DNA of 64,000 nucleotides from the NCBI GenBank assembly GCA_021413845.1, contig JAIOPP010000075.1, positions 1 through 64,000 on the forward strand, read 5' to 3'. The translations under genes were made by a program, and so were the position numbers. Positions 1 to 43,846 of the stretch are shown here, piece after piece. The number at the start of each line of letters is the position of its first letter. Positions within the stretch are counted from its first letter, which is position 1. Below the pieces are notes generated by a model. It searched no databases. It was not told the origin of the DNA and saw only the letters and a list, made by a program, of their open reading frames with translations. Source of the stretch: Planctomycetia bacterium. Its GTDB lineage: Bacteria; Planctomycetota; Planctomycetia; Pirellulales; PNKZ01.

Positions 1-297
1 GACCGAAGCGGCGACGAACACCGTGCCAAGGCCGCGAGCGAGCCGTTTACGCTCGAAGTGACCGACGAGCAGGGCCTTTACGAAGCAATGGCGGAGACGG
101 ACCAGCGCTCGGCACGTAAGATGGACGAGATCATTCAGAAGCAATTGTTGATGACCGGTCGCCCCGCCGGCACCGCGACCCCCGCTCCGCAACCTACTTC
201 GACGAAGCCGGGGACATCCCCCACGGCCTCGCCGTCTGCGACTACTGCTCCCCCTGCAGCGACCCCCACATCCCAAGGAACGGGAGGAACGCCATGA
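1..297 (+). CDS. C-terminal end of an unknown protein (partial)
   Basis: The reading frame is open from the first base, so the start lies outside the window. About 98 residues are visible. The first half (ending near the motif KMDEIIQKQL) is charged and probably helical. The second half is a low-complexity Pro/Thr/Ser/Ala tail ending in GTGGTP. The stop overlaps the next gene's start as ATGA at 294-297, so the two are translationally coupled and probably share an operon with the MoxR gene further on. I do not recognise the family; the tail resembles the disordered ends common in planctomycete envelope proteins. A GTG at 58 is in frame but has no reason to be the start. Confidence 0.6.
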   Translation, partial: DRSGDEHRAKAASEPFTLEVTDEQGLYEAMAETDQRSARKMDEIIQKQLLMTGRPAGTATPAPQPTSTKPGTSPTASPSATTAPPAATPTSQGTGGTP

Positions 298-3200
298 ACC
301 ATCCTCGAACGACTCCGGACTTCGCCCGCCGCACGCTGACTGCGCTCACCGGCTGCGCGATGCTGTACGGCAATCTCGCTCCGAGCCTCGTTTCGCTTTC
401 ACCGGCCAGGGGGCAAGAGCCGGCTCGCGGGCAAGCCGTCGCGGTCGACGATCTCCGTCGCAAGCAAGAGACGCAGCAACGGGCCGCCGAACTAGCACGC
501 GAGCTGGTGCTCAACCTGCTCGACGTCCAGCTGCAGCAGTTGGAAGAGAACGGGCTGGCCGATCGCCCCCTCTATCAAGATGTGCGGACGATGCGGCAAA
601 ACATCGACGGCTTGATCTACGCCGAGATGTCGGAAGTGGTCACGTTGTTGCTCCGCGCGCAGAACGACCAAACCGACAAACGCGACGCGGCCTTTCTCGA
701 CGCGCGTCGGAAGATCGGCGAAGTCTTGGCTCGGCTCTTGGCCGAACGGCAGAATCTTTCGCGCCGGTTGCGCACCGCCGAAATCGGCGCTCAGGTTCGG
801 CGACTGATCGAAATGGAAACCGTGATTCGCGACGTCACGATGGCCCTGCCGTCGCAAACGCGCGAGCAGCAAGAACTGCAGCAGCTTTCGACCTTGGCCG
901 ATCAACGGGACGCGCGCAAGCTGTTCGACAAATTGTTGGAAACGCTGAGCGATGCGCGTGGCTGGGGCGGGGAGATCGGCCGCACTGCGGAAGACGGCCT
1001 CTCGTTGCTCAAGGCCGCCGATACGGCCGGCCACCTCGACCAAGCCTCGGCAGGCATCGAGATGGGCCGCTTCTCCGTGGCCGTCGAACACGAAACGGCC
1101 GCTATTCGCGGGTTGCAAGTGCTCTTGAAGAAGGTCAAGGAAACGCAAGGGCTCATCGAAGCCGACCATAAGGCGGCGCTCGAGATCGTGCGCGATCTGA
1201 TTCGCAAGCAAGACGAACTGCAGGAATCGACCAAGACCGCTAAGCTTGATGATCCGACGACCGAGAACTTGCTCAAGCGGCAAACCGCGCTCGGCAAAGA
1301 GCTCGAGCGCTTGTCCGATATGCTGCTCGACAAACCGACGGCCGCGCCGCTCGTCGAAAAGGCGAAGCTCGCCTCCGAGACCGCGACGGTCGAGCTGTTT
1401 AATCAACAAGCTCCCGAAGTCGCTAAGGCGCAAGACACCGTTCGGGCGAACCTCGCCGCGATCGAAAGACAGCTGGAAGCGTCGACCGCTGATTTGCCGG
1501 AAGATCGCGATGCCGCGGCGCTCGCCGAGCGCATTCAAGATCTCGAGCGGACGAAGGCCGCCTTAGCGGAGGCCCGCGCCGAGATGGCTCCGCACGTCGC
1601 TCCGACGGCGAAGACCTCGTCGCCGGAAACCAAAGCCGCGCTCGAAAAGACGGCCGTGAACCTCGCAAAAGCGAGCGAGGATCGCGACTTGCCGAAAATG
1701 GTCGAAGCCCGGCTCCGCGAAGCGGTCCGAACGGCGCGCGACGCGAAGAAGTCGCTCGACGACCCGATGCCGAGCGAATCGCAAAAGAAGGCCGATGTCG
1801 CGAAAGCGGACGCTGCGATCGAAACGGCGCAAGCGGAAGTCGAAGCCGCGCTGGCCGACGTCAAACGGGCTCAGCCCGCGCTCGCCGCCGGTGAGCTTTC
1901 GCGCGCAGCAGAAGTGCTCGACCGCGCCGCCGCCGCCGAACGGGAAACGGCCCGCGCGGCCGTCGCCGAATCGAAGAAGGCGAAGCCCGACGAAGAAACG
2001 GTGCTTAAGCTCGCCACCGAGCAATCGCTGATCAAGGCCGTGACCGCGGACGTCGCCAAGGCGACCGAAGGGATGAACCCCGAAGCCGCCAAGGCCTTGG
2101 CGGAGGCGCAGGACTCGGCCGATAAGGCGGAGAAAAATCTTCAAGCCGCCCTCTCGCCGGAAGCGCGGGCACAAGCCGAAGCGAGAGCGAGCAAGCTAGC
2201 CGAGTCGAAGCCGGAAGAGACCAACCCCGACGAGGCTAGACCAGGCGAGAACAAACCAGGCGAGAACAAACCAGGCGAGAACAAACCAGGCGAGAACAAA
2301 CCAGGCGAGAACAAACCAGGCGAGAACAAACCGGGTGAGAACAAACCGGGTGAGAACAAACCGGGTGAGAACAAACCGGGTGAGACCGCAATGGCGGCAG
2401 CCAACAAGCCCGGCGAAGCTAAACCAGGTGAGAACAAACCAGGTGAGAACAAACCAGGTGAGGCTGCGATGGCAGCTGACAAACCGGCTGAGTCTGCGTC
2501 TGGCGAGCCGAAAGCACCGAACGAAGCACTGAAGGCCGCTGCCGAGCAAGCCGAGGATGCGGCGAAAAAGCTGACGGCCGCCGCGGCGACGCTTCGTCGT
2601 CAGGCTGCTGAGGAAGCGATGAAGCTGGTGCGCGAATCCGATAAGCAATTGGCCGACATCCGTCCGACCGCGCAAGCCGTCGAGCAGGCTGCCGCCGCGC
2701 CGAAACCCGAGAATGCCGAAGCTCAAGCGGCGTTGGCGGAGACGAAGAAAGTGCTCGCCAAAGCCGCGGCCGAACAGATGCGCGCCGCGGGCAAGCCCGA
2801 GGCGGCGGCGAGTCGCGAGTTGTCGGATAAGATCGAGCAAGCCGCGGCGATGCAGCGCAATGCGGACGCCGCAGCGGAAGAAGGTGCCGAAGGGGAAGGG
2901 GATGCGCCGCTCGCCGCCGTGACGGCCCAACAGCAAGCAGCCGACGAAGTCGAGAAGCTCACGGCTGCCGCAGCCGGACGTCCGGAAGCGAAAGCGGCCG
3001 AAGCTCAGCGTCGGCCCGATCCGCTCGGCGAGCAGCTTCGCGCGGCGCAACAAAGCGCGCAGCAAGCCGCGAAGCAAACGCTCGAAGGGAAAGAAACGGC
3101 CGCGGCTCAGTCGCGCGCCGAAGCGGCTCAAGCCTTAACGAAAGCCGCCGAGATCGCCAAGGCGGAAGAAAAGAAAGCCGCAGAACAGCCGGCCGGCAAG

Positions 3201-4826
3201 CCCGACGCCCAGGCCCAAGAACGAGTCACCGCGGCGCTGGCCGAAGCGAAGAAGACCGGCCTGCCGCAAGCACCGTCGGTCGGCGAGTCGCTGGAGAAGG
3301 CCGAGAACCAATCGATGGCCGCCGCGCAATCGGCCCCGCAAGCCGGTAAGCAAGCGGAAACGGCCAAGGCCCAAGAAGCCGCGGCGAAGAACATCGAGAC
3401 GGCGCAGCAAGCCGTCGCCGAAGCGCAAACGAAGCTCGCTGCGGCCGTAGCGCAGAAGATGCAGCAACAAGCGGCAGCCGCCGAGAAGCTGGCGAACCAA
3501 GCCGCGAAGCTCGACCCGAGCGCAACGGAAGCCTTGCGAGAAGCGCAAGCCGCGGCCGCCGGTGCCGCAGCGGAAGCGAACCCCACTCCGGAAATGGCCG
3601 CGGCCGACGAACGCCGAACCGGCCAAGCTCTGCAACGCGCGGCCGCCGATCTCGCCGCGCGCGAACAGGTCGTCAAGCGCGATCAAGCTCTCGCGCAGGC
3701 GCTCCTCTCGTCGCTCGCCGAACAGCAGCAAGCCGCGCAGGACATCGCTGCCAATCGGACGGCGCTCGCGCAAGCCACGCCGCCGCCGGCTCCTCCGGCC
3801 GCCGCTCCTGAAGGACCGCCGAACGGCGAGCCGCAAGAAGCTCCGCCTGCAAGCGGAGCGCCGCAAACTCCTCAAGCACAGCCCCCTCAAGCGCAGGCGG
3901 CGCAACCGGCGGCTCCTCGGCCGCAAGCCCCGCCGTCGCCTGCCGCGGCCGATGCCGCACGTAAGTTGAACACCGCGATGCAGTCGTTCGCGCAGGCCGC
4001 GCAAGTGACGGGCCAAGCGGCGCAAGAAGTCGCCGGTCAAACGCAAACCGCCAATGCCGCACTCGCGCAGGCCCTGGAGAAGGCCTCGGAACTGACGCCG
4101 CCGGCGCTCCCGGAAGCGATCGGCGAACCGGCGATGCCGGCTAGCGGTGAACCTGCCGTGGCGGCCGCTCCCGCACCGGCATCGCCTGCCGCCCCCGAAG
4201 CGGCCCCGCCGGCGGACTCGCAACCTACTGCTCCGCCGACGGCCGCGGCGCAACCAGCGGGTGCGCAGCCGGACGCTTCGCAAACTGCCGCAGAGGCTAC
4301 TCCTTCCGCGCCGAAATCAGCGGCTTCGTCGACTCCCGCCGCGCAGATTCCGCAAGCCGGCGCGCCGCAATCGGCTCCGCCCACGGCGATGGGCCGCAGT
4401 CTCGCGCCGCAATCGCCCGAAGAGACGGCCCGCATGATGGCCGGTCCGCAAGCGCTCGAGCAGATGGCGCAAGTCGAACAAGCGGCCGGCGCGCCGAAGT
4501 CGGCAACTTCGCCGAGCAGCACTCCACCGAGCGCTTCGCAACAAGCGCAGGAAGGGCAACAGAGCACTGCGAGCAAGCAGTCGCAACAGAAAAGCGAGCC
4601 GGCTTCGCGCACGACGAAAGCCCAAGAATCATCCCTGGCCTCGGTGCAAAACTCCGGCCGTTCGGAGAACGACGCCGCGCTGAAGGGAGACCTTAAGAAG
4701 AACGACGAACCTTGGACGACGAAGCTCCCCGCCGAACTACGCCAAGCCATCCGAGCCGAAGCCCAGCGCCCGGCCCCGCGCGGCTACGAAGAACGTCTGA
4801 GAAACTATTTTAAGAACATCGACTAA
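294..4826 (+). CDS. Large secreted Ala/Gln/Lys-rich coiled-coil protein with PGENK repeats
   Basis: This encodes 1510 residues. Residues 1 to about 41 look like a Sec signal peptide (basic start, hydrophobic stretch, Ala-rich end before GQEPARG). Residues 50-500 are heptad-like and charged. Around residues 650-725 lies a Pro-Gly-Glu-Asn-Lys repeat. Residues 740-1180 are extremely Ala/Glu/Lys/Gln-rich helix, then a Pro/Ala/Gln-rich disordered part follows. The last 40 residues are less biased and contain the motif LPAELRQAIRAEAQ and an end of the type YEERLRNYFKNID. From memory, similar endings occur in large uncharacterised planctomycete proteins found near MoxR ATPases. It overlaps the upstream gene by 4 nt and precedes the MoxR gene by 76 nt. 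A structural envelope role is only a guess; no enzyme motif is visible. Confidence 0.85.
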   Translation: MNHPRTTPDFARRTLTALTGCAMLYGNLAPSLVSLSPARGQEPARGQAVAVDDLRRKQETQQRAAELARELVLNLLDVQLQQLEENGLADRPLYQDVRTMRQNIDGLIYAEMSEVVTLLLRAQNDQTDKRDAAFLDARRKIGEVLARLLAERQNLSRRLRTAEIGAQVRRLIEMETVIRDVTMALPSQTREQQELQQLSTLADQRDARKLFDKLLETLSDARGWGGEIGRTAEDGLSLLKAADTAGHLDQASAGIEMGRFSVAVEHETAAIRGLQVLLKKVKETQGLIEADHKAALEIVRDLIRKQDELQESTKTAKLDDPTTENLLKRQTALGKELERLSDMLLDKPTAAPLVEKAKLASETATVELFNQQAPEVAKAQDTVRANLAAIERQLEASTADLPEDRDAAALAERIQDLERTKAALAEARAEMAPHVAPTAKTSSPETKAALEKTAVNLAKASEDRDLPKMVEARLREAVRTARDAKKSLDDPMPSESQKKADVAKADAAIETAQAEVEAALADVKRAQPALAAGELSRAAEVLDRAAAAERETARAAVAESKKAKPDEETVLKLATEQSLIKAVTADVAKATEGMNPEAAKALAEAQDSADKAEKNLQAALSPEARAQAEARASKLAESKPEETNPDEARPGENKPGENKPGENKPGENKPGENKPGENKPGENKPGENKPGENKPGETAMAAANKPGEAKPGENKPGENKPGEAAMAADKPAESASGEPKAPNEALKAAAEQAEDAAKKLTAAAATLRRQAAEEAMKLVRESDKQLADIRPTAQAVEQAAAAPKPENAEAQAALAETKKVLAKAAAEQMRAAGKPEAAASRELSDKIEQAAAMQRNADAAAEEGAEGEGDAPLAAVTAQQQAADEVEKLTAAAAGRPEAKAAEAQRRPDPLGEQLRAAQQSAQQAAKQTLEGKETAAAQSRAEAAQALTKAAEIAKAEEKKAAEQPAGKPDAQAQERVTAALAEAKKTGLPQAPSVGESLEKAENQSMAAAQSAPQAGKQAETAKAQEAAAKNIETAQQAVAEAQTKLAAAVAQKMQQQAAAAEKLANQAAKLDPSATEALREAQAAAAGAAAEANPTPEMAAADERRTGQALQRAAADLAAREQVVKRDQALAQALLSSLAEQQQAAQDIAANRTALAQATPPPAPPAAAPEGPPNGEPQEAPPASGAPQTPQAQPPQAQAAQPAAPRPQAPPSPAAADAARKLNTAMQSFAQAAQVTGQAAQEVAGQTQTANAALAQALEKASELTPPALPEAIGEPAMPASGEPAVAAAPAPASPAAPEAAPPADSQPTAPPTAAAQPAGAQPDASQTAAEATPSAPKSAASSTPAAQIPQAGAPQSAPPTAMGRSLAPQSPEETARMMAGPQALEQMAQVEQAAGAPKSATSPSSTPPSASQQAQEGQQSTASKQSQQKSEPASRTTKAQESSLASVQNSGRSENDAALKGDLKKNDEPWTTKLPAELRQAIRAEAQRPAPRGYEERLRNYFKNID
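2241..2468 (+). repeat. 15-bp tandem repeat encoding PGENK
   Basis: Nine contiguous full 15-bp units (2241-2375) plus a degenerate tenth (2376-2390) encode PGENK. After an interruption encoding an Ala-rich linker, two full units and one degenerate unit follow (2424-2468). Units 1-6 are CCAGGCGAGAACAAA, units 7-9 are CCGGGTGAGAACAAA and the second block uses CCAGGTGAGAACAAA. The synonymous variants are sorted into blocks, which fits stepwise slippage or unequal exchange of already diverged units. All length changes in whole units stay in frame. Confidence 0.95.
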
Positions 4827-6031: not shown

Positions 6032-6349
6032 CTAAAAGCTGATCTCGCGCAGCTGGCTCTTTACCGGGAGCACGAAGATCTTGCCGTCTCCCATGCGTCC
6101 CGTGCGGGCCGCATCGACGACTTTGCGCAAGATCTCTTCGCAGCGAGCGTCGTCGACCCAGAGATCGATCTCGACCTTCGGTAGAAACGCGAGCGAGTAT
6201 TCGCTGCCGGCGTATTGATCGAGATAGTTCTTCTGCCGGCCGAATCCCTTCACCTCGCGCACGCTGATGGCTTCGAGCGGGGCCCGCTTGAGGCTTTCGA
6301 GCACCTTCTCGGCGAGATACGGTTTCACGACGGCGACGATCTGTTTCAT
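6032..6349 (-). CDS. P-II family nitrogen regulatory protein, short C-terminus
   Basis: This 105-residue protein follows E. coli GlnB numbering exactly through the T-loop. Gln39, Lys40, Tyr46, Tyr51 and Lys58 are all present, as are the GFGRQK segment and the B-loop MGDGKIFVLPV. P-II trimers bind ATP/ADP and 2-oxoglutarate and control ammonium uptake and nitrogen assimilation. The odd point is the C-terminus: where GlnB has the RIRTGEE segment (Arg101, Arg103), this protein ends in KSQLREISF, so the usual C-loop phosphate contacts are missing. It lies 56 nt downstream of a ferredoxin gene on the same strand. No amtB or glnA is nearby. Tyr51 is available for uridylylation, but whether that occurs is unknown. 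Confidence 0.9.
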   Translation of the reverse strand: MKQIVAVVKPYLAEKVLESLKRAPLEAISVREVKGFGRQKNYLDQYAGSEYSLAFLPKVEIDLWVDDARCEEILRKVVDAARTGRMGDGKIFVLPVKSQLREISF

Positions 6350-6405
6350 AGCTGCGTTCTATTCGCGGCACGCGAGATCGATCGAGTCGGACAAGTCGTG
6401 TGGGG

Positions 6406-6792
6406 TTAGCTGAAGAAGTTCTCGCCGGTCAGGTTCATCGGCGGCTTCGTCTCGACCGACATATCTCCTTGCACCGTCGTGCGGCAGGCGAGCCGCATCG
6501 TGTCTTCGTTGCCGATATAGGCGAACAGCGCCGGGCCGAGCGGGTTGTATTTGAACGTCACCTTTTCGACCATACCCATCGCGCCGGCGTTTTCCATTCC
6601 CTTCACGATCTTCACGCGGCAGGTGCCGCAGTGGCCGAAGCCGTGGCAGTTGAAGACTTCGTTCAGGCCTGCGCCGAAGCCGTTGAGGCCGCCGTAGAGC
6701 TTCACGCCGGCCTTCATCGCTTCGTTGCGAAGGTTGGCGCCGACCGGAACTTCGATCTGTTTCTTCTCGTTGACGAAATTGACGATCAGCAT
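6406..6792 (-). CDS. [2Fe-2S] ferredoxin
   Basis: This encodes 128 residues with a ferredoxin beta-grasp fold. Cluster ligands are Cys49, Cys55, Cys58 and Cys103, giving a C-x5-C-x2-C spacing followed by a distant Cys in the context RLACRT. The protein starts directly with the first beta strand (MLIVNFVNEKK) and has no signal peptide, so it is cytoplasmic. Compared with a classic 100-residue ferredoxin it has an extra hydrophobic segment (YNPLGPALFAYIGN) between the third and fourth ligands and a 20-residue tail. It is the first gene of a probable two-gene operon with the P-II gene. Its electron partner cannot be named from the sequence. Confidence 0.9.
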   Translation of the reverse strand: MLIVNFVNEKKQIEVPVGANLRNEAMKAGVKLYGGLNGFGAGLNEVFNCHGFGHCGTCRVKIVKGMENAGAMGMVEKVTFKYNPLGPALFAYIGNEDTMRLACRTTVQGDMSVETKPPMNLTGENFFS

Positions 6793-7105: not shown

Positions 7106-7375
7106 ATGGCCGAACGTAGTAAGTATCAAGAAAATATCATCAAGAATTATTACAAAAATGCAGGGGCGATTTCTCTGCAGCGGTTGAGCGAACTGGTCAC
7201 GGACCTGTATCTGGCGGAGGGAAAGGCCCGCGCCGGCGTTTGGAAGAAAATTCAAGCGACGCTCGAAAAGCTGAAAGTCCCGGCGTCGCGCATCGAGCAT
7301 GTGATGAAGGCCGACAACCCGACCTTGCTGGCGAAGTTGCTGGAAGAATTGCTGGCGAAAGACGACGCGAAATAA
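7106..7375 (+). CDS. Small helical protein of unknown function
   Basis: This encodes 89 residues. The start at ATG 7106 has AAAGGAAA at 7091-7098 as a ribosome site; an in-frame extension back to 6959 lacks one and reads as low-quality Arg-rich sequence. The protein is mostly amphipathic helix, with the segments ISLQRLSELVTDLYLAEGK and NPTLLAKLLEELLAK. It has no Cys, no signal peptide and no membrane segment. I recall similar proteins only as conserved hypotheticals of planctomycetes and cannot name a function. It stands alone between the ferredoxin operon and the ABC operon. Confidence 0.75.
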   Translation: MAERSKYQENIIKNYYKNAGAISLQRLSELVTDLYLAEGKARAGVWKKIQATLEKLKVPASRIEHVMKADNPTLLAKLLEELLAKDDAK

Positions 7376-41177: not shown

Positions 41178-41770
41178 AAAGAACTCGTGTCGTTAATAGA
41201 ACCGGGCCGCGACGCCTGCGCACCGCTCACGCGGCTGCCTTACACGGCGACCTCTTTCGAGCCGTCGCGATGGCTGCGTCCGCGGCGTTAATGATTCAGC
41301 AATAGCGACTACGCAATTCGTGCGTTCGGGAAGAGAGTTCGCGCCTGCCGGTTCCCGGCGGTTCGTCGCTTCATCCTCTTTCAATCAAGCGGTGGCAGTG
41401 CCACGAATGCAACCAATGCTTTCGTGCAGAACGCCTTATTACGGCTGCCGCATCTCGAAACGAGCAGAGGTTTAGGGAGGCGGAATTCCCAACGGATTTT
41501 GCGGCGAAAATGCTTGCAGCCCTGAAAGGAACCCCAATGTTTTCGTGATCGTTACAGCTTAACGGAGCCGGGATTTCCGCATTGGGAAAGACGCTAAGTT
41601 CGAGACATTCGGATGCATGAGAGTCTCCGGACGTACCGATCCAAACAATATCCGAACGGAATCGACGAGCAAGGCGGCCCAGCGCCGGCCGAGCCGGATC
41701 GGACAGTGTTTTATCTCGGGCGTTGGCGGACGACCGGGCGGCCCTTATCCACGGACGGGAGATCTCGATC
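41178..41770. other. Long gene-free region before the porin gene
   Basis: These 593 bases have no convincing gene. They include a 13-bp palindrome GTGGCAGTGCCAC at 41391-41403 and several AT-richer stretches (for example around 41540-41570). A long leader or a distant, regulated promoter for the porin gene is likely. No clear -35/-10 pair was identified by eye. Confidence 0.5.
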
Positions 41771-42991
41771 ATGAAGATTTCAGTGAAGGCGCTATTATGG
41801 GCGGCATTCTGCATGCTCATTAGCGCAGGAAGTGCGAACGCGCAGGGGACATGGACGGCGAAGGGCTGGCTCGCTCAGAGCTATACGGCCAATCCGGCGT
41901 CGCCCCACGACAAGTACAACGGTCCGGTGACATGGACGGATCGTTCGAACGAATACCAGATGAACGAACTGTACATGTATCTCGAACGGAGCACCGACAC
42001 CGGTGGCGACGGTTGGGATCTTGGTATGCGCGTCGATACCATGTACGGTACGTCGTCGCGGTTCGTCAACCAAACCGGCTGGGAACTGCAAGGCGACGGC
42101 ACCCAGAACTGGAACGGCAACAACCGTTTCTACGGTCTCTGTATGCCGAACTTGTACGCGGAACTCGCGTACAACGATCTTAAAGTCAAGATCGGTCGGT
42201 TCGTGTCGCCCGTCGGTTACATGACCGTCGGTTCGCCGAACAACTTCTTCAATGCCCTCCCGTATACTTACCAATACGGCGAACCCTTCACGCACACCGG
42301 CATCATCGGTACCTACACGATGACCGACAAATTGACGGTCGGTGCGGGTGTTACGAAGGGCTGGGATAACGTCAGCGATTCGTACAACCCGACGTTCGGT
42401 GCGCTCACGACCTCGACCTACTTATTGGACAGCGGTGCTTCCATCGCGACGGTCCAAGTCTTCTCGAACGAACCATCGGGATCGTCGACCTCGGGGGGCC
42501 AAAGCCCGCGCTTCTTGAACACGTTCGTGTACACGAAGCCGTTGACCGAAAACCTCCAATACGTTTTCCAATCGGACTTCGGTTCCCAACAAAATGCGAC
42601 TGCCGCATCCGGGAACAATTCGGACGGACATTCGGCTAAGTGGTACGGTGCGAACCAATACTTGCTCTATACGATCAACGAGAAGTGGGCCTTCGGTGCC
42701 AACTTCGAGTGGTTCCGCGATCAAGAAGGGTTCCGTACGCAACAGTTGAACCTCAATACCGGTACCGGCAGCACCCGTTCGGCTCCTCTTGCCGGATATG
42801 CCGGCAACTTCTACCAGATCACGATGGGTCCGAAGTGGAAGCCGACCGAAAACCTGATGATCCGTCCGAACGCTCGTTGGGACTGGTACAACGGCGACCT
42901 CGGCAACAACGGTACCCGTCCGCTGCCGTTCGACGACGGCAACAGCGGTACGCAGTTCATCTTCGGTACCGACGTGGTCTTGTTCTTCTAA
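41771..42991 (+). CDS. Outer-membrane beta-barrel porin-like protein
   Basis: This encodes 406 residues. A Sec signal peptide ends with SANA, cut before Gln25. The mature part is rich in Gly, Asn, Tyr and Trp with alternating strands, for example LYAELAYNDLKVKIGRFVSPVGYMTVG, here split by turns, and ends with VVLFF, an aromatic C-terminus as needed for barrel insertion. It best resembles the OmpL-like putative porin-2 family. ATG 41771 has GGAG about 8 nt upstream. Codon choice differs from the neighbours (many GGT, ACC, AAC and TAC codons), which suggests high expression. A strong terminator follows. The presence of a porin supports a Gram-negative-type envelope. Confidence 0.88.
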   Translation: MKISVKALLWAAFCMLISAGSANAQGTWTAKGWLAQSYTANPASPHDKYNGPVTWTDRSNEYQMNELYMYLERSTDTGGDGWDLGMRVDTMYGTSSRFVNQTGWELQGDGTQNWNGNNRFYGLCMPNLYAELAYNDLKVKIGRFVSPVGYMTVGSPNNFFNALPYTYQYGEPFTHTGIIGTYTMTDKLTVGAGVTKGWDNVSDSYNPTFGALTTSTYLLDSGASIATVQVFSNEPSGSSTSGGQSPRFLNTFVYTKPLTENLQYVFQSDFGSQQNATAASGNNSDGHSAKWYGANQYLLYTINEKWAFGANFEWFRDQEGFRTQQLNLNTGTGSTRSAPLAGYAGNFYQITMGPKWKPTENLMIRPNARWDWYNGDLGNNGTRPLPFDDGNSGTQFIFGTDVVLFF

Positions 42992-43341: not shown

Positions 43342-43498
43342 GATACGCAGTCTTTTCCCGCATACACCGCCGACTTCGCTGTTCGACGCGTGACTGGCCT
43401 GTGCGAGCGGCTTCGCTGCGGCACTTGTGAGCAATCCCGCGGCTGCCTACGATGGACGTCTTTCGCCCAGCGTCGCAGTCCGAGGATGTGTTTCCACG

Positions 43499-43846
43499 AT
43501 GAAATTGATCATCGCGATTATCCAGCCGAGCAAGCTCGAGGCCGTTAAAGCCGCTCTAACCGAAGTCGAAGTCTTCCGGCTCACGGTCATGGACGTCCAG
43601 GGCTTCGGCCGCCAGAAGGGCTATACCGAGCTCTATCGGGGGCACGAGTTCTCCGTCAACCTGCTGCGCAAGGTTCAGCTCCAGATCGCCGTGAACGAAG
43701 AATTCGTCGAGCCGACGATTCAGGCCGTGATCAAAGGGGGCCGTAGCGGCAACCAGGGAGAAATCGGCGACGGCAAGATCTTCGTCCTCCCGATGGACGA
43801 CTGCATCCGCATCCGCACCGGCGAACGAGGCCAAGAAGCGATCTAA
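43499..43846 (+). CDS. P-II family nitrogen regulatory protein with Phe51
   Basis: This 115-residue protein follows GlnB numbering up to the T-loop. Gln39, Lys40, Tyr46 and Lys58 are present, and the C-terminal RIRTGERGQEAI has the usual Arg101/Arg103 pair. Two changes stand out: residue 51, the Tyr that is uridylylated in GlnB/GlnK, is Phe (YRGHEF), and the B-loop region has about three extra residues (GGRSGNQGEIGDGK against TGKIGDGK). The start at ATG 43499 fits homology; GAGGA at 43482-43486 is 12 nt upstream. It stands alone, convergent with the phosphofructokinase gene. Control by uridylylation at residue 51 is impossible; ligand sensing should still work. Confidence 0.92.
   Translation: MKLIIAIIQPSKLEAVKAALTEVEVFRLTVMDVQGFGRQKGYTELYRGHEFSVNLLRKVQLQIAVNEEFVEPTIQAVIKGGRSGNQGEIGDGKIFVLPMDDCIRIRTGERGQEAI

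Follow-up and report, generated by a model that had tools for sequence, protein, structure and literature searches.

A gene for a predicted small [2Fe-2S] ferredoxin, followed by one for an apparently dedicated P-II paralogue, makes up a two-gene unit kept through the Pirellulales, a large environmental order in which the pair is near-universal and apparently unstudied; our search of the open-access literature (subscription papers being outside its scope) found no paper describing it. Our explanation, which is tentative but which we regard as a serious candidate, is that the P-II protein is a lineage-specific variant acting with, or on, this ferredoxin or its client enzyme.

In the window, i.e. 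the whole 64,000-nucleotide stretch of DNA that was analysed (source assembly, 7.08 Mb and 99.6% complete), the two ORFs are arranged as in the preliminary description, on one strand and with the same short gap (Table 1). No promoter was recognized at the pair locus. The recognized neighbours encode a MoxR AAA ATPase, an ABC transporter ATPase, an endonuclease/exonuclease/phosphatase, and an iron alcohol dehydrogenase; neither amtB nor glnA is among them, in agreement with what had been noted earlier. The amtB genes of the window genome are located on contigs C74, C51, and C24, and none on the contig of the pair (C75). A canonical P-II gene adjoins amtB on C74, and the P-II gene of the pair does not occupy the position next to amtB that is characteristic of the GlnK subgroup. 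Compared with a congener, the P-II gene shows 11, 7, and 34 differences at codon positions 1, 2, and 3, respectively, and the ferredoxin gene 13, 8, and 37; this excess at third positions indicates that both genes are under purifying selection. Elsewhere in the window, a 1510-aa protein (294-4826, plus strand) with no Pfam family has a high content of Ala, Gln, and Glu, and its middle part carries a run of KPGEN repeats. A second P-II gene (43427-43846, plus strand), whose product has a complete RIRTG C-loop and, ahead of GDGK, an insertion of 3 aa, lies downstream of a porin-like ORF (41723-42991; named by eye).

Table 1. Features of the ferredoxin–P-II locus (positions in the window)
Feature	Position	Strand	Basis or remark
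Predicted [2Fe-2S] ferredoxin, 128 aa, first gene of the pair	6406..6792	-	Fer2, four cluster Cys
Ferredoxin–P-II gap, 56 nt, without terminator-like site	6350..6405	-	
P-II protein, 105 aa, order-specific subfamily without C-loop	6032..6349	-	PF00543, orthology, tree
P-II T-loop region codons, residues 37-55 = GRQKNYLDQYAGSEYSLAF	6185..6241	-	K40, Y42, L43, and Y46 invariant; R47 replaced
P-II truncated C-terminus codons, residues 97-105 = KSQLREISF	6035..6061	-	Arg at 101; R103 and RIRTG C-loop absent
SM, 88-aa all-helical protein, divergent third conserved neighbour, function unassigned	7109..7375	+	Elsewhere followed by ThyA or ThyX

By the standard of the preliminary description itself, adjacency in this genome alone would have told against it; the two genes are instead kept together across an order. 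Among 40 genomes of the same order, representing many families, 31 hold both genes (including G029, in which the ferredoxin match is weak and distant), and in 26 of these the genes are adjacent, i.e. on the same contig and within about 600 nt; they are held apart in four (G014, G015, G025, and G027). This P-II is present without a ferredoxin match in five of the 40 genomes (G011, G012, G022, G036, and G038), and the ferredoxin without this P-II in one (G004). In a partly overlapping sample of 80 named contigs found with a ferredoxin alignment (the 80 best among 418 ferredoxin loci from GTDB genomes, each with a planctomycete title), the P-II gene lies directly downstream of the ferredoxin gene and on the same strand in 76, with a median gap of 77.5 nt; one of the four exceptions (L213) has <2 kb of downstream sequence. 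The pair was identified in Blastopirellula marina DSM 3645, Bythopirellula polymerisocia, Lacipirellula limnantheis, and Adhaeretor mobilis, it stays intact where the divergent neighbour SM is missing, and the genes flanking it vary between families of the order. Because it is conserved through an order, the pair is more than a chance arrangement. Its two genes are presumed to be co-transcribed.

The P-II product scores 65.2 bits against PF00543 (Pfam cut-off, 25), and its predicted fold is that of a P-II protein (model pLDDT 81.6; best Foldseek match GlnZ, E = 2.1e-11). Orthologues with 56-89% identity were found in 36 of the 40 genomes, where other P-IIs reach at most 43%. Among 294 genomes sampled from the phylum, strong matches (at least 161 bits) are limited to the order, the next-best match (118 bits) being in one genome of another class, and all matches in a plasmid collection are <60% identical (best, 47.5%). 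In the tree, a long branch (length 1.87, support 100/100) splits the subfamily from canonical P-IIs; the rows L088-L091, labelled 'other' within the subfamily, are order members fetched by phylum search. On these sequence comparisons, the protein belongs to a distinct orthologous subfamily of the order. Since the R101/R103 C-loop is incomplete, it was classified by its residues as a variant within the P-II fold family, and not as a canonical GlnB or GlnK.

Residues were counted in 32 orthologues of the subfamily. Residues Q39, Y46, Y51, and K58 are present in the window copy, as had been claimed. G35, Q39, K40, Y42, L43, Y46, K58, W64, G87, D88, G89, and K90 are invariant (32/32), and K40, Y42, and L43 among them form a T-loop signature that is new to the subfamily. 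Residue 9 is Lys in 30 members and Arg in the other two, R38 is kept in 30/32, and position 51 is occupied by Tyr in 30 and by Phe in two. The side chains expected for binding of 2-oxoglutarate (2OG), Mg, and nucleotide, i.e. a basic residue 9, Q39, K58, K90, and G87, are thus all retained. R47 of the T-loop plugs AmtB in the AmtB-GlnK complex; this position is Ala in the window copy and Arg in only 2 of the 32, so that the T-loop departs from that of the GlnK subgroup. Residue 48, a Gly that is strictly conserved in P-II proteins (PMC7919409), is Gly in just 13/32.

The C-terminus departs further. The gap-free alignment to solved P-IIs spans through residue 101, where the window copy has Arg, residue 103 is Ile, and the protein ends at 105. 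Of the Arg pair described at first as lost, R103 is indeed gone (0/32), but R101 survives in the window copy and in 9 of the 32 members as a whole. The RxR(T/S)G motif is found in 0/32, and the RIRTG C-loop is absent from all 32 members; the label 'atypical P-II' proved right for the family. The ATP contacts in GlnK structures include T29', Q39, G87, K90, R101', and R103'; 2OG is contacted by residues 9 and 58 as well as by Mg with Q39, and placement of K90 is aided by the carboxy terminus (PMC8395244). The residues kept in the subfamily are those that bind ATP, Mg, and 2OG in such structures (PMC8395244, PMC7919409). Set against the GlnK ligand contacts, the residue pattern indicates that the 2OG/Mg half of the predicted ligand site is kept and that the C-loop half is lost.

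The first gene of the pair encodes a protein that just passes the Fer2 threshold (22.1 bits versus a Pfam cut-off of 21). Its cluster cysteines, C49, C55, C58, and C103 (C-x5-C-x2-C-x44-C), are invariant in 31 orthologues, and the family shares a conserved C-terminal GENFFS motif. The ferredoxin is therefore predicted to be of the [2Fe-2S] type, with a bound cluster and redox activity. Within the phylum, the ferredoxin family extends to other orders and classes, there without the P-II subfamily alongside, which suggests that the ferredoxin can work alone. At four loci outside the order (L242, L243, L246, and L249), a gene named by eye as carbon-nitrogen-hydrolase-like lies no more than about 2 kb from the ferredoxin gene; this gene was set aside as a functional neighbour, the number of loci being too small to use.

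The third conserved neighbour, SM, is present in 38 of the 40 order genomes. Its model consists of five helices (pLDDT 89), the fold search gave no convincing structural match (best E = 0.79), and no family was assigned in Pfam, NCBIfam, or PHROGs. Among the best 80 of the 418 ferredoxin loci, SM was found in 57, in 56 of which it is divergent to the pair, and a thymidylate synthase gene adjoins SM in 48 of the 57 (30 ThyA and 18 ThyX; NCBIfam confirmed one case of each), on the strand of SM in 47 of the 48. ThyA is usually accompanied by a dihydrofolate-reductase-like gene, for which the name FolA is our reading of the sequence. The pair might accordingly belong to a thymidylate/folate neighbourhood (SM-ThyA-FolA or SM-ThyX on one side and ferredoxin-P-II on the other), in which P-II would match nucleotide synthesis to the nitrogen and energy state. 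The association with SM holds although ThyA and ThyX are unrelated enzymes, and in two genomes (L085 and L086) SM-Thy faces P-II directly, with no ferredoxin between. However, SM and Thy are found away from the pair in many genomes, a relocated SM often still adjoining ThyA or ThyX; SM is not beside the pair in 23 of the 80 loci, some of which have short flanking sequence; and the window carries the pair and SM with no Thy neighbour, in a genome without ThyA. We consider this explanation distinctly unlikely. Another proposed connection, made in the preliminary description, is that the pair ties P-II sensing to a ferredoxin-dependent glutamate synthase, an enzyme found in cyanobacteria and plants. 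This now appears highly improbable. The window genome, 99.6% complete as it is, contains no true PF01645 match, its sole match (21.8 bits) being an IMP dehydrogenase; this absence is unusual, since 38 of the 40 genomes searched have a strong glutamate synthase match. Nor do the relatives point to a ferredoxin-dependent enzyme: at L265, where the large subunit is a glutamate synthase, the gene that follows passes TIGR01317 (small subunit of the NAD(P)H type, GltD), as does the gene beside GltB at L271, and the glutamate synthase is thus of the NAD(P)H kind in the two relatives tested. In five further relatives, the protein that follows GltB resembles these small subunits in start and length, as judged by eye.

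Could the adjacency of the two genes be inherited synteny without functional meaning? All of the loci fall within one order, and common descent alone can hold neighbours together, but the pair keeps one orientation in 76/80 loci and its adjacency in 26/31 genomes while the flanking genes differ between families, and we regard this possibility as quite improbable. The main rival to a partnership of P-II and ferredoxin is shared expression with separate targets, i.e. that the two genes are co-expressed for one condition and that P-II acts on a transporter, an enzyme, or a regulator without ever touching the ferredoxin. P-II proteins have many unrelated targets, and the T-loop signature is much alike in members with and without ferredoxin. 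The retention of P-II without ferredoxin in five of the 40 genomes points the same way, and weighs more than any other fact against a strict partnership. Such an arrangement is possible, if on the unlikely side, given that ferredoxin and P-II remain adjacent, in the same order and on the same strand, in 76 of the 80 contigs while other neighbours change. Adjacency of genes differs from interaction of their products; that P-II senses through the ferredoxin or acts on it is our inference.

The explanation that we tentatively prefer is that this P-II variant works together with the ferredoxin or its client, or acts on one of them. Side chains at the T-loop base and in the B-loop, which contact 2OG, Mg2+, and adenine nucleotide in P-IIs, are retained in it, whereas the C-loop has been lost together with its RxR motif, by which an adjacent subunit grips the phosphates. 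The protein would then most likely still read adenylate and/or 2OG, with altered affinity or altered discrimination between ATP and ADP. Alternatively, ATP/2OG binding could have disappeared along with R101/R103 and the usual C-terminus. The conserved T-loop of the subfamily, unlike those of GlnB and GlnK, may bind the ferredoxin or an enzyme served by it, and control would presumably run from P-II to the ferredoxin, so that electron delivery would be tuned to the energy and carbon/nitrogen state. A bolder and more doubtful version is that of a dedicated P-II–ferredoxin signalling unit that gave up the C-loop, reads adenylates or 2OG anew, and gates one specific ferredoxin, joining carbon/nitrogen/energy sensing to electron supply and possibly also to the neighbouring dTMP genes. 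Few signal proteins are as widespread as the P-IIs, for which transporters, kinases, modifying enzymes, and regulators are the known partners. A P-II that is fixed beside a ferredoxin and has naturally lost its C-loop would offer a direct test of P-II control of electron delivery, and the subfamily would also serve to test what the P-II C-loop is needed for.

Compared with GlnB, GlnK, and GlnZ (PF00543), the subfamily shares the fold, the core length, Q39, K58, K90, the GDGK B-loop, and Y51 (30/32). It differs in the absence of the RxRTG C-loop, the replacement of R47 in 30/32, the invariant W64 and R69, the T-loop sequence (KSYLDQY versus KGHTELY), and the gene alongside, where a ferredoxin gene takes the place of amtB or glnA. 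Short C-loop-less P-IIs from other planctomycete classes (L092-L097, L099, and L110) likewise end soon after GDGK without RxRTG, but their T-loop is mostly KGHLELY and they form a separate branch; no ferredoxin was found near them in the 1.9-12 kb examined. The two P-II chains of PDB 9p1x (105 and 125 aa), which we take to be NifI proteins, are members of the P-II family and one is likewise 105 aa long, but their sequences are only remotely similar (51.5 and 54.2 bits, versus 105.9 for the best match), and no nif genes were recognized in this analysis. For the ferredoxin family, the closest solved relative by sequence is the photosynthetic NDH-complex protein PnsB3 (E = 1.6e-9), followed by weaker matches to putidaredoxin and other [2Fe-2S] ferredoxins. 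Unlike PnsB3 and putidaredoxin, the ferredoxin described here is a small, free-standing protein with GENFFS at its C-terminus and a P-II gene behind its own.
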